Shown here: positions 3,726 through 29,144 of the stretch, piece after piece
How the letters are laid out: each line of letters begins with the position of its first letter
How positions within the stretch are numbered: the stretch's first letter is position 1
Source of the DNA: Veillonella seminalis
Lineage (GTDB): Bacteria > Bacillota > Negativicutes > Veillonellales > Veillonellaceae
Assembly: GCF_003992065.1 (NCBI RefSeq)
Contig: NZ_RQUZ01000007.1
Location: 1-64,000, forward strand
Length of the DNA stretch: 64,000 nt
Reading direction: 5' to 3'
Position numbers and translations under genes: made by a program
Notes under the pieces: model-generated
Told to the model about the DNA's origin: nothing
What the model saw: only the letters and a program-made list of their open reading frames with translations
Databases searched by the model: none

Positions 3726-4115
3726 TTATTTATTTTCCCACAGCAAATGGTACAATTCTTCACCCATACTGTCAGGCGGAATCGAATCTACGGAAGTGTC
3801 AAAATAATATTCATCTTCAGCATACGGTGTTCCGTCAGAATAAAACGGTTTCACATCCAATGTTTGTATGGTGAAATTATTTCGATTCAAACGAACGCGT
3901 TCTAAGTAATACTCGCCATTCGGATTATTTACGCGAATCCATACCACTGCTTCTTTGTCATCTTTGACCACCGAGCTGTTATCTACAGAGTATTGCTCCC
4001 CATCATAGCTTTCCCCCAAATAATACCAGTCCGCTGCATTTACCTCAAATATGCCACCGAAATTTAATGCCCCTAACACACCTAATGCAAAAATTGCACT
4101 CTTCCAAAGTTTCAT
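3726..4115 (-). CDS. Small secreted protein, adhesin-E-like
   Basis: 129 residues from the ATG at 4115, which has AAGGGGTGGAG just upstream; an earlier in-frame start lacks one. Residues 1-27 form a classical signal peptide ending near NAADW, so the product should be exported. The mature part opens with WYYLGESYDGEQYSVD, then a VVWIRV strand and a C-terminal segment with IPPDSMGEEL. This pattern resembles the surface-adhesin protein E domain (one short beta-rich domain of about 100 residues). The resemblance is from memory and moderate. Monocistronic, with its own terminator. Function unknown; an envelope or periplasmic role is inferred only from the signal peptide. Confidence 0.6.
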   Translation of the reverse strand: MKLWKSAIFALGVLGALNFGGIFEVNAADWYYLGESYDGEQYSVDNSSVVKDDKEAVVWIRVNNPNGEYYLERVRLNRNNFTIQTLDVKPFYSDGTPYAEDEYYFDTSVDSIPPDSMGEELYHLLWENK

Positions 4116-22594: not shown

Positions 22595-24763
22595 TCAATT
22601 AAGTTTAGCTCTTTTTAACCGAAGGGCATTCGTAACAACCGTAACGGAACTGAAAGCCATTGCCGTACCGGCTACGATTGGTGTTAACATGCCGATAGCG
22701 GCCAATGGAATACCAAGACTGTTGAAAATAAGAGCCCAGAAGAGGTTCTGACGAATATTCGTCATAGTCTTGCGGCTTAGAGTTACGGACTGAACCAACG
22801 TGTTCAAATCATTACGAACAAGTACGATATCAGCTGCTTCAACAGCAATATCAGTACCGTTACCGATGGCAAAACCAATATCAGCCAAGGTCAAAGCAGG
22901 TGCGTCATTAATGCCGTCACCAACCATACCTACTACTTTACCGGCTTTACGTAATTCATCAATCTTACCGGATTTATCCTGCGGCAATACTTCCGCCATA
23001 ACATGTTTAATACCAACTTTATCGGCAATGTATTGAGCGGTACGACGGTTATCACCGGTGAGCATCCAAACTTCAATGCCACGATCTTGTAAGGTTTTAA
23101 TAACTTCCGGAACTTCCGGACGCACTTCATCTTCTACAGCCCACAAAGCTCTGATTTCACCGCCTACGGCTAAGAGCGATACGGAAGCGCCGCGTTCTTC
23201 TTCGGCAAGCACGGCTTTTTCAATCGTTTCATTCATATAACCTAAGGACTGCATCCAACGGCTGTGACCTAATTGAACCATCTGATTATCTACCACAGCT
23301 TCGAGGCCATGGCCTGGAACTTCTTTAAAACCGGTAACGTTCGGCAATACACCATTCCCCAATTCATTAGTACCGTAAGCTGCCATAGCTTTGGCAATAG
23401 GGTGAGTAGTCAAACCTTCGATAGCGGTCATGATACCCGTATTTTCTTTGGCATCACCGGCGAAGTTAACGGTTTTACTTACCATCAAAGTACCCTTAGT
23501 GATAGTACCGGTTTTATCCAATACGATGGCATCTAATTTGCCGGCACGTTCAAGGAATTCGGCACTCTTAATCAAAATGCCGTGTTCAGCACCCAAACCG
23601 GAACCTACCATGATAGAGGTTGGCGTTGCCAAACCTAACGCACATGGGCAAGCGATAACCAATACGGCTGTACCATGCATAAGAGCTACGCCCCAAGTGG
23701 CATCAAAACCAAAGTACCATACTAAGGAAGTTAATACAGCTAAAGCAATAACGGTCGGTACGAAGTAAGCGGCTACTACGTCGGCTACACGTTGAATGGA
23801 AGCTTTAGAAGTCTGCGCTGCTTCTACGACTTTAATAATCTGAGACAACATGGTATCGGAACCGATTTTTTCGGCACGCATTGTGAATACACCGGTTTCG
23901 TTAACGGTTGCACCGATAACTTTGCTGTCAACTGTTTTTTCAACCGGCAAGCTTTCACCGGTCAACAAGGATTCGTTAACAGCCGATTGACCTTCAATGA
24001 CAACACCGTCTACCGGAACTTTTTCACCGGCACGAACTTGAAGAATATCGCCGACCTGAACTTCAGCGGTAGGAACGTCTACCCATTGGCCGTCACGCTG
24101 CACATGAGAAATACTTGGTGTTAAACCCATCAATTTTTCAAGAGCTTCAGATGTACGACCTTTAGCCACTTCTTCAAGAACCTTACCTAATAAGATAAAG
24201 GTAATCAACCAAGCGGACGTTTCAAAGTATAAATCGTGGCTGCCCACAGACATATTGTAAATGCTGAATAAGTAAGCTACCGTAGTACCTAAGGCAACCA
24301 ACACATCCATAGTCAAGGAACCGCTCTTAATAGCACTCCAAGCACCTTTATAGAACACGAGGCCCGGACCGAACTGAGCAACAGTTGCCAATACAAGTTC
24401 TACCCACGCCGGTAACATAGGCCATCCGAAGAAATGGCTGCCCATCATGCTGACCATCATTGGGATAGCCATAACAGCGGCAATAATCATACGATACAAT
24501 TGAGGTTTGTAATTTACTTTTTCAAGTTTTTGAACCCCTTCTTCAGCCAAGGTAGCACCAAAACCGATACCGGTGATAGCTTTAATTACGTCATCAGGGG
24601 TTACCTTGCTGTCATCCGTATAGGTAACACTGCCTTTACGGGTTAAAAGGTTAACCTTTACATCAGCCACACCATCCATACGGCTGACTACTTTTTCAAC
24701 ACGACCGACACAGGCTGCACAGTGCATGCCGGTAATGTCAAATTCATTACTCTTTTGACTCAT
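22595..24763 (-). CDS. copA: Copper-exporting P1B-type ATPase CopA
   Basis: 722 residues from ATG 24763 (an in-frame GTG three codons earlier is less well placed behind AAAGGA). Pumps Cu(I) out of the cytoplasm. One N-terminal heavy-metal domain with GMHCAAC (Cys15, Cys18), eight expected helices, actuator TGES (268-271), the intramembrane CPC metal site (372-374), phosphorylation site DKTGT (416-420), HP motif THPIAKA and the hinge [10 protein letters not shown]. The CPC plus MxxSS-type C-terminal helix marks the copper subgroup. Downstream of csoR, the copper sensor, in one operon. Confidence 0.94.
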
Positions 24764-24858
24764 ATATAACACATCCTTTGTTCTCTGTCTCTAATACTGC
24801 ATCTTCTTATCAGAAAATGGCGTTACAATCCATTTATTAATACTATAATTCATATATA

Positions 24859-25128
24859 TTATTTATGTAACGATTTATATACGCCCATCAATTCGGTAAT
24901 GGCATCATCTTCCTTGCCCTTTTTAATGGCGTCCACTACACATGAGCGGGAATGACTTTCTAACATTAGAAGACCAACTTGATATAAAGCCGCTCTTACG
25001 GCACCAATCTGTTGTAACACTTCCACACAATAACGATGATCGTCAATCATCTTTTCGATGCCCTCGACCTGGCCTTTAATACGACGTAAACGACGACTTA
25101 ATTTTTCCATTTCCATATCTGTCAGCAT
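24859..25128 (-). CDS. csoR: Copper-sensing repressor CsoR
   Basis: 89 residues, all-helical DUF156/CsoR family. The Cu(I) ligands of CsoR are all present as Cys34, His59 and Cys63 (in RYCVEVL and ESHSRSCV), which separates it from formaldehyde (FrmR) or nickel (RcnR) relatives. Apo-CsoR represses and copper releases it. AAGGAGG precedes the ATG. A perfect CsoR-type operator lies in its own leader, so autoregulation with copA is expected. Confidence 0.92.
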   Translation of the reverse strand: MLTDMEMEKLSRRLRRIKGQVEGIEKMIDDHRYCVEVLQQIGAVRAALYQVGLLMLESHSRSCVVDAIKKGKEDDAITELMGVYKSLHK

Positions 25129-25213
25129 CTTAATTCCTCCTTACCTCTATCTGAACAGTTACTCTTAAGTAGCTGTACTAACGGAATTCATCGGGGATTT
25201 TTATCTCCTCTCG

Positions 25214-25232
25214 GATACCCCATGGGGGTATC
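25214..25232. promoter_or_regulatory. CsoR operator in the csoR-copA leader
   Basis: Perfect 8-3-8 palindrome GATACCCC-ATG-GGGGTATC, matching the known CsoR operator type (TACCC...GGGGTA). It lies just downstream of the expected transcription start of csoR-copA, suited to repression. Confidence 0.85.
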
Positions 25233-25245
25233 TCATCTGTATATT

Positions 25246-25274
25246 ATGTTAAACCTTCTCATTAAAAACGTCAA
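25246..25274 (-). promoter_or_regulatory. Promoter of csoR-copA
   Basis: Minus strand: -35 TTGACG (25269-25274), 17-base spacer, -10 TAACAT (25246-25251). The operator follows within about 20 bases. A GGGGGTAT half-site (25278-25285) lies immediately upstream of the -35. Confidence 0.7.
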
Positions 25275-25346
25275 CAAGGGGGTATTGTTAAATCGGCGAA
25301 AATTACGTATCATAAAATAAACGAAAAACATTTGCCCGAATAAGGC

Positions 25347-25375
25347 TTTACAAGCGGTCTATACGCCGCTACACT
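25347..25375 (+). promoter_or_regulatory. Promoter of the IMPACT-family gene
   Basis: Plus strand: -35 TTTACA (25347-25352), 17-base spacer, -10 TACACT (25370-25375), 69 bases before the start codon. Divergent from the csoR promoter. Confidence 0.65.
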
Positions 25376-25443
25376 ATATTGAAAAACATTGTTTTGATAA
25401 ACTCTATCAATCTTTTTTAAAGATTTTCTAACAGGGGGTATAT

Positions 25444-26076
25444 ATGAAATCCTATATTACGGTCGCCAAAGAGCATCGTATTGAATATATTGTCGAAAAA
25501 TCCCGCTTTATCGCCACCGCTATTCCCTGCGAAACAGAAGAAGAAGCACAGGCCGGTATTGCCCGCATCAATAAAGAGTTTTGGGATGCCACACATAACT
25601 GCACGGCCTACGCCTTAGGTCCCGGTCAAGAACAGCAACGCTCCTCGGATAACGGTGAACCGTCCGGTACGGCCGGCAAACCGATGCTCGAAGTTTTGAA
25701 AAAAACAGGCATCACCAACACCTTAATCGTGGTGACTCGTTATTTCGGCGGTATTAAACTCGGTGCCGGCGGACTCATCAGAACTTATTCGCACAGTGCG
25801 GCGGAAGTTATTCACGACGCGCCGAAAACCTTATATGCACCACGACAAATCGTGTCACTTACTATCAACTACAGCTATTACGGTGCTATCGAGCGCTTCT
25901 TGCAGGAACAGAACTTTCACTACGAATCAGAATTTGCAGAACAAGTAAAACTATTGATTTACGTTGATCCCGATGAAGTCGCAGCCCTCGAAACAACCAT
26001 GACCAACCTAACTAACGGTCAACAGGCTTGGGAACTGTTGGAAGCCAAAATGGTGGCTCTACCCTACACCGAATAA
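25444..26076 (+). CDS. yigZ: IMPACT/YigZ family protein
   Basis: 210 residues. N-terminal UPF0029/IMPACT domain with EYIVEKSRFIA, ATHNCTAYALG and the signature DNGEPSGTAGKPML, then TRYFGGIKLGAGGLIRTY, followed by a C-terminal DUF1949 ferredoxin-like domain (from about residue 140). Bacterial members are of uncertain function; the eukaryotic homologue regulates translation via GCN1. Start ATG 25444 follows CAGGGGGT, which is both ribosome site and a GGGGGTAT half-site. First of the few plus-strand genes here. Confidence 0.9.
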   Translation: MKSYITVAKEHRIEYIVEKSRFIATAIPCETEEEAQAGIARINKEFWDATHNCTAYALGPGQEQQRSSDNGEPSGTAGKPMLEVLKKTGITNTLIVVTRYFGGIKLGAGGLIRTYSHSAAEVIHDAPKTLYAPRQIVSLTINYSYYGAIERFLQEQNFHYESEFAEQVKLLIYVDPDEVAALETTMTNLTNGQQAWELLEAKMVALPYTE

Positions 26077-26121
26077 GCTGATATAACTATATACTCACCG
26101 GAATAGCCTTGCTTAACACAA

Positions 26122-26136
26122 TACCCACCGGGGGTA
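26122..26136. promoter_or_regulatory. CsoR-type operator between yigZ and the LysR gene
   Basis: TACCC-ACCGG-GGGTA, 15 bases, the same dyad type as the csoR operator but less perfect. It lies 46 bases past the yigZ stop and about 170 bases upstream of the LysR start. Confidence 0.5.
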
Positions 26137-26184
26137 CTATATATGGCATTTATTACTCGTTTAAACAAGCTTATGTAGCTTTTA

Positions 26185-26198
26185 TACCCACTGGGGTA
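26185..26198. promoter_or_regulatory. CsoR-type operator abutting the LysR promoter
   Basis: TACCC-ACTG-GGGTA, ending one base before the -35 of the LysR promoter. Together with the site at 26122-26136 it suggests copper or a related signal could control this promoter; this is inference from motif similarity. Confidence 0.55.
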
Positions 26199-26227
26199 CT
26201 GACAAATATATCGTACCATAGTACAAT
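26199..26227 (+). promoter_or_regulatory. Promoter of the LysR gene
   Basis: Plus strand: -35 CTGACA (26199-26204), 17-base spacer, -10 TACAAT (26222-26227), 80 bases before the start codon. Confidence 0.65.
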
Positions 26228-26306
26228 ATATATTAAACATATAGTAAAGTAGTACGCCCAAAACTACATGTCATGACAATCTAACTTGGAAACAGGGAGG
26301 ATTCTC

Positions 26307-27197
26307 ATGGACACATCATATTATTACAATTTCATTATCTTGGTACAAACAGGCAATATGACTCAGGCTGCCAACATTTTACACATCACACAACCGGCCC
26401 TGAGCAAACAGCTTAAATATTTGGAAGCCGAATTCGGTACGCCCCTCCTGCACATAAAACGCGGTCAACGAGGGGCTAATTTTCGTCTCACTGAAGCAGG
26501 TCGCATCTTCTATGAAAAAGCACAGCAACTTTGTGCCATTGAAGAAGCTGCTTACGAAGATGTAAAACGCTTAAATTCGGCCGTAGAAGGAACACTCCGC
26601 ATCAGCTCGTCCGCATCACGTTCAACCGGACTAATACAGCAATATTTACAGGCTTTTTCACAAAAGCACCCGTCCGTACGCTACGAGATTTACGAAGGTC
26701 TCATGAGTGACGTCACGGAATCACTATTGAACGGACGCACGGAAATCGGTCTTTGCAACTCGCAAATGGTGGATACCAGTCGCTTTGATATCCTCTTTAC
26801 CCAACCGGAATCACTCTACGCAGTCTTTCGCAATGATGTTTTTTGGAACAGTCAGGAAAAAGAAAGTCTTACGTGGGATGAGATTGCTCGTTGCCCACTG
26901 AGCCTATCCGGCGGATCGGTACGCATGCTCATGCAAAGTGCCAGTCGCCTTTTCAATAACCTGAATGTCATTTCCGTCACAACGACCAAAAGCTCAGCCA
27001 TTGAATGGGCTCAACTCGGTCGCTCGGTGGCTATCATACCGATGGATACGCAGGAAAAAGTACATGGTCGCAAAATATCACGTATTCGCCTGCCCGAATT
27101 GTCTACCGGTTTTCACAAAAGTTTTATTATCGTGAAAGGTCATACGCCTTCCCTTGTGAGCAAACAATTCTTAGAGTTCTACCAAGGAATGATGTAA
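26307..27197 (+). CDS. LysR-family transcriptional regulator
   Basis: 296 residues from ATG 26307, behind GGGAGG; an in-frame TTG seven codons earlier overlaps that site. N-terminal winged helix-turn-helix (about 1-60) with NMTQAANILHITQPALSKQL, then a linker helix and the periplasmic-binding-like effector domain (about 90-296, ISSSASRSTGLIQQY at its start). Unlike the usual arrangement there is no divergently transcribed target gene. Its own upstream region carries two CsoR-type dyads. The likely effector is unknown. Confidence 0.88.
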   Translation: MDTSYYYNFIILVQTGNMTQAANILHITQPALSKQLKYLEAEFGTPLLHIKRGQRGANFRLTEAGRIFYEKAQQLCAIEEAAYEDVKRLNSAVEGTLRISSSASRSTGLIQQYLQAFSQKHPSVRYEIYEGLMSDVTESLLNGRTEIGLCNSQMVDTSRFDILFTQPESLYAVFRNDVFWNSQEKESLTWDEIARCPLSLSGGSVRMLMQSASRLFNNLNVISVTTTKSSAIEWAQLGRSVAIIPMDTQEKVHGRKISRIRLPELSTGFHKSFIIVKGHTPSLVSKQFLEFYQGMM

Positions 27198-27251
27198 ATA
27201 AATTAAAAAATGTAAAATTCCATAAATCTTTATATTTCTATATTTATAAAA

Positions 27252-27280
27252 TTGAATATTGTCATATTTTATGATACACT
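27252..27280 (+). promoter_or_regulatory. Promoter before the CPYC protein gene
   Basis: Plus strand: -35 TTGAAT (27252-27257), 17-base spacer, -10 TACACT (27275-27280). The expected start falls inside the hairpin that follows. Confidence 0.6.
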
Positions 27281-27282
27281 AA

Positions 27283-27314
27283 GGGTAGTGGTACAGTAAC
27301 CACTACCCCTTTTT
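27283..27314 (+). terminator. Terminator-like hairpin between the LysR gene and the CPYC gene
   Basis: Perfect 10-base stem GGGTAGTGGT (27283-27292) / ACCACTACCC (27299-27308) then CTTTTT. Most simply the terminator of the LysR gene. It begins two bases after the -10 of the promoter above, so a transcript from that promoter would start within the left arm. Confidence 0.75.
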
Positions 27315-27352
27315 AATATTTCATTTTGTTAATACGAAAAGGATAGATAACT

Positions 27353-27628
27353 ATGAAAGAAATTTTAGGATTCCACTTAAATGGTTGCCCTTATTGCAAA
27401 AACGCATTCAAAGCCATCGACGAATTGAAAGCTGAAAATCCACAATACAAAGATATTAAAATTAACTGGGTAGAAGATCAGGATGCTCATGAATTATTCA
27501 AAACTCATCCGTATGAATACTATCCAAACCTTTGGTTCGACTTGGATAAACAGTATGAAGCTCATCCGGGCGAAACTTACGAAGAAACTAAGAGCTTGAT
27601 CAAAGCTGTCTTCGACAAAGCTTTATAA
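27353..27628 (+). CDS. Glutaredoxin/thioredoxin-fold protein with CPYC motif
   Basis: 91 residues. The redox motif CPYC (Cys12, Cys15) follows a first strand EILGFHLNG, as in glutaredoxins. The remainder is short for thioredoxin but normal for glutaredoxin-like proteins, and the cis-Pro region may be YYPNLWFD. It should reduce disulfides or handle thiol-bound substrates in the cytoplasm; the partner is unknown. AAAAGGAT precedes the ATG, and it is monocistronic between two hairpins. Confidence 0.8.
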   Translation: MKEILGFHLNGCPYCKNAFKAIDELKAENPQYKDIKINWVEDQDAHELFKTHPYEYYPNLWFDLDKQYEAHPGETYEETKSLIKAVFDKAL

Positions 27629-27668
27629 TCCTAAACCTATAACAACATATCGTTTAGTAAGCAAAATA

Positions 27669-27709
27669 AAAGAGTTCATCGGGTCATACGACTCAGTGAA
27701 CTCTTTTTT
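27669..27709. terminator. Bidirectional terminator between the CPYC gene and cycA
   Basis: Stem AAAGAGTTCA (27669-27678) / TGAACTCTTT (27697-27706) with an inner GGGTC/GACTC stem. T7 follows on the plus strand and an A-rich run precedes it, so it can serve both convergent genes. Confidence 0.85.
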
Positions 27710-27785
27710 GTGCCTTATCAGGCCGTTTTATTTAATTATAATAAATTACTTTTCCCTATAGCTTCTTTGTACCCTATCCTGACAA

Positions 27786-29144
27786 CTAGGCAATTTCCTT
27801 CTTCAATTGATAAATCAAGAGCAGCATAATGAACCATACCGGCGTTACGAATAAAGCAACTCTCGTAGCCGGGTTAAAGGCCAAAGTTACGATAACAAAA
27901 GCAAAGAACGCCAATACCAAATAGTTCAAGAATGGGAACAACGGCATTTTAAAAATACTCTTAGCCGCCAAATCAGGACGTTTACGGATAAACTTCATGT
28001 GACAAATGGTGATGATACCCCAAATGTACAAGAAGCAGAATGTTGCCACACTCGATATAATAACGAATACACCTTCGGCCACAACATACTGTAAAGCAAC
28101 AACCAAACAGATTACCAATACGGATAAGAACAAAGCATTGGCCGGTACCTGTTTGCTCGTCAAAATTTCAAGAATACCCGGTGCATGATTGCGCTTGGCT
28201 AACGAATAGAGTAAGCGACTGGTACTGAACACACCGCTGTTACAAGCAGACGCTGCCGATGTAAGGACTACAAAATTAACCATAGATGCCGCCCCCACAA
28301 TGCCGACCGCCAAGAAAACTTCAACGAACGGACTGCGGTCCGGATTTACGGAATCCCATGGGAAAATGCTCATGATAACGCCAAGTGCTCCCACGTAGAA
28401 CAAAATAATACGTACCGGAATACTGTTAATGGATTTAGGAATAACCTTCTGAGGATTTTCCGTTTCACCGGCTGTTAAGCCTACCAGTTCAATACCCGCA
28501 AAGGCAAACACAACCATTTGGAATGATTGGATAAAGCCGTCCATCCCTTTCGGGAACCAACCGCCATGACTCCATAAATTACTGAAACTGGCTACGCCTA
28601 CCGAAGTCGGTTGACCGGTCAATATAAAATACAAACCTAACACGATGAGGGCGATGATGGCAATGACTTTAATACAGGCAAACCAAAACTCCAACTCACC
28701 GAATAATTTTACCGTCAACAGATTCATGAGCAGTAAAATTATGAGGGTTATAAGGCTTGGTATCCACGCTTCAATGGACGGGAACCAATACTTAACATAA
28801 ATCCCTACGGCCGTGATATCGGCCATGGCTACGGAGATCCAACAGAACCAGTAGGTCCAGCCCGTAACAAAGGCTGTTTTCTCACCCATATAATCCTGCA
28901 CAAATTCAATAAACGTGTGGTACTCCGTGTTCGATAAGAGTAACTCTCCAAGGGCTCGCATCATCAAAAAACAAATGATACCGGTAATGATGTAGGCAAA
29001 TAAAATAGCCGGCCCCGTCAAGGCTATGGAATGGCCCGATCCCAAAAACAGACCTGTTCCGATAGCGCCCCCGATGGCAATCAACTGCACATGGCGGTTC
29101 TTAAGCCCCCTATTGAGGGTTTGCTCTTTTTCCAAGTCACTCAC
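27786..29144 (-). CDS. cycA: Amino acid permease, CycA-like (D-Ala/D-Ser/Gly)
   Basis: 452 residues with about twelve helices, amino acid/polyamine/organocation superfamily. The opening RHVQLIAIGGAIGTGLFLGSG is the family substrate/ion site. Several stretches agree closely with E. coli CycA as I remember it (TGWTYWFCW, FAGIELVGLTAGET, NFVVLTSAASACNSGVFSTSR, SIFKMPL), so the D-alanine, D-serine and glycine importer is the best guess, with other amino acids possible. It has its own promoter with an overlapping dyad, and shares a terminator with the convergent CPYC gene. Confidence 0.82.
   Translation of the reverse strand: MSDLEKEQTLNRGLKNRHVQLIAIGGAIGTGLFLGSGHSIALTGPAILFAYIITGIICFLMMRALGELLLSNTEYHTFIEFVQDYMGEKTAFVTGWTYWFCWISVAMADITAVGIYVKYWFPSIEAWIPSLITLIILLLMNLLTVKLFGELEFWFACIKVIAIIALIVLGLYFILTGQPTSVGVASFSNLWSHGGWFPKGMDGFIQSFQMVVFAFAGIELVGLTAGETENPQKVIPKSINSIPVRIILFYVGALGVIMSIFPWDSVNPDRSPFVEVFLAVGIVGAASMVNFVVLTSAASACNSGVFSTSRLLYSLAKRNHAPGILEILTSKQVPANALFLSVLVICLVVALQYVVAEGVFVIISSVATFCFLYIWGIITICHMKFIRKRPDLAAKSIFKMPLFPFLNYLVLAFFAFVIVTLAFNPATRVALFVTPVWFIMLLLIYQLKKEIA

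Follow-up and report, generated by a model that had tools for sequence, protein, structure and literature searches.

Genes and predicted operators at the copA-lysR locus

We analyzed a 64,000-nucleotide stretch of DNA (the window) in which copA and csoR, on the minus strand, are followed by yigZ, lysR and a small thioredoxin-like gene on the plus strand. copA (22595-24760) encodes a copper-type P1B ATPase with one HMA domain (TIGR01511, 592 bits against a cut-off of 397; PF00403). The csoR product (24859-25128) belongs to the DUF156 family (PF02583, 95.7 bits against a cut-off of 22.8), and no NCBIfam model reached its own cut-off (RicR, 74.6 against 175). Its best solved relative is the CsoR structure 4m1p. 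Aligned to this structure, the protein reads Cys-x24-His-x3-Cys with a Tyr before the first Cys, and we take these C-H-C residues to be copper ligands. The gene thus encodes a putative Cu-sensing DUF156 repressor, CsoR. yigZ (25444-26076) falls in the IMPACT/YigZ family (TIGR00257, 187.4 bits against 167.95). The lysR gene (26307-27197; PF00126, PF03466) encodes a protein for which none of the best 25 NCBIfam models reached its cut-off, and a search for its function returned distant relatives only. The LysR protein is 92-96% identical in V. ratti, V. intestinalis and two further Veillonella isolates. The thioredoxin/glutaredoxin-like gene (27353-27628, plus strand, CPYC motif) adjoins lysR in the genus and had no Pfam or NCBIfam match. 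Between these two genes lies a terminator-like hairpin (27283-27308) with TACCC and GGGTA in its stem.

A tblastn comparison found copA, yigZ and lysR together in 15 of 18 chosen lysR-bearing loci. Among the loci with this grouping are those of V. parvula, V. atypica and V. caviae, one of the two loci of group g2, and loci in four genomes of a different family (f3); it is missing from L087, L135 and L092, the last of which lies near a contig end. This wide distribution marks LysR as an old neighbor of copA. Of the 18 loci, those of the window's genus and of G008, a genome of another genus, are the only ones with csoR between copA and yigZ. The gene was either inserted here or lost elsewhere.

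A perfect 19-bp dyad, GATACCCC-ATG-GGGGTATC (25214-25232), is the predicted csoR operator. It has the TAC-X9-GTA spacing given for published CsoR operators in the parts of PMC3902906 consulted. The same TAC/GTA repeat flanking G/C tracts defines the type 2 operators of CsoR in S. lividans, B. subtilis, L. monocytogenes and S. aureus. All seven genomes of the genus have the X9 spacing at csoR, three of them with a weaker right arm, GAGTA; no such dyad was recognised at csoR in G008, where the gene has the same place. The dyad is near promoter-like hexamers for csoR (TTGACG-17-TAACAT, 25246-25274, minus strand). csoR and copA are also the core targets in the CsoR meta-regulon of gut Firmicutes, as described in the portion of PMC4938975 available to us.

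The earlier note had extended this control to yigZ, on the basis of two GGGGGTAT half-sites. One (25278-25285) is flanked by the -35-like boxes of csoR and yigZ, which stand back to back (that of yigZ belongs to TTGTTA-17-TATCAT, 25285-25313, plus strand). GGGGTA is kept here in 8/8 csoR-yigZ gaps (seven genus genomes and G008), always 2-4 bases after GTCAA, the csoR -35-like box read on the plus strand, and such strong conservation means that the G-tract may have a role. We considered the surrounding AACAA-GGGGGTA-TTGTT repeat as a type 1 site, the class that RcnR uses according to the same portion of PMC3902906. We rejected it because its arms are parts of the two -35-like boxes, which leaves only the G-tract informative. 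The other half-site (25434-25441, plus strand) is at the yigZ ribosome-binding site and is also a usable Shine-Dalgarno sequence. GGGGTAT directly precedes the yigZ frame in all eight csoR-linked genomes (the start codon is uncertain in G004), and the motif is of the AGGAGGTGA type in most of the Veillonella sensu stricto loci displayed. Neither half-site is part of a complete TAC/GTA (type 2) dyad, and a half-site construct showed no detectable CsoR binding in the results seen from PMC3902906. Control of yigZ by CsoR is thus unsupported as proposed, though the conservation of the half-sites makes it conceivable.

Inverted repeats upstream of lysR

Two further dyads lie in the 233-bp gap between yigZ and lysR, 62.5 bp apart. 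The distal one, TACCCACCGGGGGTA (26122-26136), has X9 spacing and is inside a promoter-like TTAACA-16-TACTAT (26113-26140). The proximal one, TACCCACTGGGGTA (26185-26198), has X8 spacing and abuts the -35 hexamer of the promoter-like CTGACA-17-TACAAT (26199-26227, plus strand). All five sequence features described in the earlier note were found where it had placed them. It was right that the proximal dyad stands beside the lysR -35, but no base separates the two, where the note had counted one; TACAAT follows 17 bp further. Both dyads have the TAC/GTA inverted repeat, the proximal one with the G/C tracts of a CsoR type 2 operator, and the X9 spacing of that class is seen in the distal dyad only. 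In the part of PMC4938975 at hand, nearly half of the promoters in the gut Firmicutes meta-regulon carry two sites, as lysR does, but with spacing classes of 26, 36-38, 51 or 56 bp, none of which fits the 62.5 bp at lysR.

The pattern TACCC-N3..5-GGGTA occurs at exactly three places in the window's own 2.25-Mb genome (25216, 26122 and 26185), all of them in this 1-kb region. A backward-read control pattern occurs at four places in the same genome, and hence the dyad is not over-represented and the evidence lies in its clustering, not its number. At the control rate, the probability of at least two dyads in the yigZ-lysR gap is about 9e-8. The looser pattern TACCYN{3,4}GGGGTA has four other places in the genome (contigs C3, C9, C17 and C19). 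The similar genome-wide counts, and the restriction of the distal dyad to one species, are what one would expect of chance or non-regulatory repeats such as hairpins. Against this stand the clustering and the conservation of the proximal dyad, and we consider such an origin highly improbable. We also looked for structured elements: no intrinsic terminator was called at the lysR dyads, and Rfam gave no match up to E 1 in 24700-27800.

The earlier note proposed a search for the same dyads in related genomes, and this showed conservation of the proximal dyad and its spacing. A full-length lysR orthologue is present in six of the seven sampled genomes of the genus. Five of these six (G000, which is the window's own genome, G001, G002, G005 and G006) retain the proximal dyad, which has X8 spacing in all five and always touches the -35 hexamer, which reads [CA]TGACA and stands 17 bp before TACAAT. 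The promoter elements TGACA and CATAGTACAAT are kept in 6/6. Within the proximal dyads TACC and GGGGTA are constant and mainly the core varies; in G003 the dyad has decayed, with loss of the GTA arm. Among the seven genomes the distal dyad was seen in no species but the window's. In the 230 bp before lysR, no such dyad was found in group g2 (6/6 loci) or in Veillonella sensu stricto (13/13 loci), and the lysR dyads were found only in the window's genus.

The LysR orthologues of G004 and G008 are truncated. Each retains just the HTH and the linker, some 95 aa counted from the Met (L104:4320-4670 on contig C4 of G004; L105:6707-7051 on contig C1 of G008). They have the same syntenic place in two genera and end at about the same point, and this could reflect either a shared truncation or a DNA-binding-only LysR.

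LysR-type regulators often bind next to their own promoters, and the proximal dyad touches the lysR -35 hexamer. On these grounds the dyad could be an autoregulatory site of LysR, or the site of an unrelated regulator. However, the g2 LysR proteins are 73-74% identical to this one and nearly identical in the HTH stretch, yet their genes lack the dyad, as do those of Veillonella sensu stricto. The same motif also occurs at csoR and before the P1B ATPase gene described below. Moreover, a better LysR candidate lies downstream, between the lysR promoter and lysR: a GTAGT-N9-ACTAC inverted repeat (26249-26267). We judge this origin of the proximal dyad improbable. The downstream repeat, TAGTACGCCCA, precedes lysR in all seven genus genomes, and one extra copy occurs, in the window's genome only (G000:C2:91354). 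It is a possible LysR autoregulatory site; the search with TAGTACGCCCA revealed no LysR regulon beyond the gene's own promoter and this extra copy. We also examined TACGCCCA, before lysR in Veillonella sensu stricto, as a shared LysR site. It was set aside, as it coincides there in part with the start of a small ORF on the minus strand, and so only its conservation in the window's genus counts.

A second DUF156 paralogue and its predicted sites

Six of the seven genus genomes encode two DUF156 paralogues besides CsoR, and G004 has CsoR only. One of them, here called B, is encoded beside a P1B ATPase gene (G000:C11:76426-76659 in the window's genome; in G002 a contig break falls between the two genes). 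B has the C-H-C set, but the residue before its first Cys is Pro, not the Tyr of CsoR. Its solved relatives include CsoRs first, then InrS. B shares the DUF156 family with the nickel/cobalt sensors InrS and RcnR, and B-class sites stand near nickel-type transporter genes in three of the genomes described below. The B-linked ATPase exceeds the curated cut-offs of two models, one for the cadmium family and one for the copper family, and because of the latter the inducer of B could even be copper. The ATPase gene is preceded by two tandem dyads 33-36 bp apart, giving 12 sites in six genomes, all X8.

Two other observations concern the surroundings of these paralogues. The third DUF156 protein (L043, G000:C13:43643-43876) has a His-rich N-terminal extension, and its gene adjoins an ORF that, judged by its letters, looks OsmC-like; that locus showed no dyads of this class. 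At L102:8328-12001, upstream of a MerR-B-ATPase cluster, ORFs look nitrogenase-like and NifH-like, again by their letters.

We compared the lysR dyads with the csoR operators and the B-linked sites. The proximal lysR dyads are X8 (5/5) and the csoR operators X9 (7/7), a difference with a Fisher p of 0.001 when relatedness is ignored; the sites are related by descent, and such counts are not independent. A leave-one-out score of arms and length, trained on a small set of partly identical sites that share descent, placed all 19 csoR and B sites in their own class. On this score, four of the five proximal lysR sites favor B by 5.6 to 8.9 nats, and the G002 proximal dyad and the distal dyad are neutral (-0.34). 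Measured against the B class (TACCYATRGGGGTA), the proximal dyads agree in part: the X8 spacing in 5/5, the TACC[CT]A left arm in 4/5, and the full core in 1/5 (V. ratti). The G002 dyad, TACCCCATGGGGTA, equals the core of the window's csoR operator minus one G.

Veillonella sensu stricto (14 genomes sampled, gene context read in G015, G017, G020, G023, G024 and G026) offers a view of B largely on its own. Thirteen of the 14 genomes have no DUF156 protein other than B; G023 also has CsoR. TACCYATRGGGGTA accounts for 25 of 54 wider-pattern places, in 12 of the 14. Three genomes, G015, G017 (V. parvula SKV38) and G020, carry an X8 site upstream of a gene for a nickel-type solute-binding protein and an X9 site about 380-400 bp before NikBC-type permease genes; an X9 site with this same spacing is also present in four more genomes. 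The G017 permeases pass the NCBIfam cut-offs for nickel transporter permeases, and the G017 solute-binding proteins match nickel models below the cut-offs. G023 and G024 have tandem X8 sites before a full ATPase gene, whose product is 59-62% identical to the ATPase of the window's genome. Another X8 site of G017 precedes an ORF weakly similar to this ATPase (35% over 66 residues; no Pfam match), and in G026 the sole pattern place is inside a gene. The V. ratti (G006) lysR dyad, TACCCATGGGGGTA, is letter-for-letter the same as the sites that precede the solute-binding genes in G015 and G020, as one ATPase site of G024 and as a site of G022.

The predicted B sites before nickel-type ABC transporter genes are at 3781 and 9487 in L169 (V. 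parvula SKV38), 5380 and 11139 in L176, and 4914 and 10629 in L177. V. parvula SKV38 also has what appears to be a remnant of this ATPase gene: a pair of adjoining fragments (L170:3231-3604) that resemble the B-linked ATPase at 84% over 58 residues and at 66% over 70.

The nickel-type neighbors weakly suggest a transition metal as the inducer of B. X9 sites also occur in genomes whose sole DUF156 protein is B. This suggests that X9 is tolerated by B, and length alone is therefore indecisive.

Predicted control of lysR

Together, our analyses support the prediction that the dyads before lysR are operators of the CsoR (DUF156) family. To this extent the earlier note's suggestion of a CsoR-class signal at lysR holds, as operators of this type are conserved and touch the promoter. 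It had put copper first among such signals; on that reading copper's own CsoR would bind both lysR dyads, and copper would derepress csoR-copA and lysR together. lysR lies two genes from csoR, in the old copA-yigZ-lysR neighborhood, and the G/C tracts of its dyads resemble those at csoR, above all in G002. The distal dyad has the X9 spacing of csoR's operator. The proximal dyads speak in part against copper's CsoR as their reader, with X8 spacing in all five and B-like arms in four of five. G004 and G008, which have CsoR but not B, also lack the lysR dyad, although both have a truncated LysR, which makes the absence in G004 weak evidence. We regard control by CsoR and copper alone as somewhat unlikely.

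Control by B, alone or with CsoR, is the better hypothesis, given the X8 spacing and the identity of the V. ratti dyad to B-class sites in Veillonella sensu stricto. In addition, the only genus genome that lacks B (G004, with its truncated LysR) also lacks the lysR dyad. Counting against B are the X9 sites before permease genes in B-only genomes, and the presence of B without a lysR dyad in G003 and at the 13 Veillonella sensu stricto loci; group g2 lacks both dyad and B. With the match of the ATPase to the copper-family model, these points make CsoR, or both proteins, possible readers. On balance we lean, with modest confidence, toward DUF156 repressor operators read most likely by B, with CsoR as a possible second reader and with lysR freed by the inducer.

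In the mechanism we propose, B (or a CsoR-family repressor) would bind the proximal dyad against the -35 hexamer, where it would block RNA polymerase. Binding of the inducer would release the repressor and allow transcription of lysR, a sign of regulation suggested by the family, and LysR would then act on its targets. CsoR may also read these sites, the distal X9 dyad in particular. A more elaborate version seems unlikely to us. In it, two CsoR-family paralogues that respond to different inducers would have separate targets in one genome, set by the length and arms of the dyads, and would converge on lysR, with B on the proximal X8 dyad and CsoR on the distal X9 dyad of the window's species. 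If it were true, the LysR beside copA would combine the copper signal with that of another metal, perhaps of the nickel type.

Among the open-licence papers listed we found no CsoR-LysR link of this kind. LysR appeared only within a reference title in the portion of PMC4938975 covered, and the Veillonella and CsoR matches listed included none on CsoR operators, judging from titles and the starts of abstracts. The kind of system is known; a LysR gene as its target was not seen among the papers listed. CsoR-family repressors are known chiefly from efflux genes, as with the characterized type 2 operators, whereas the predicted operator conserved here stands at a LysR gene and would set up a sensor-to-regulator cascade. 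The presence of X8 and X9 sites in one genome also lends itself to testing how paralogous repressors of the DUF156 family discriminate between sites.
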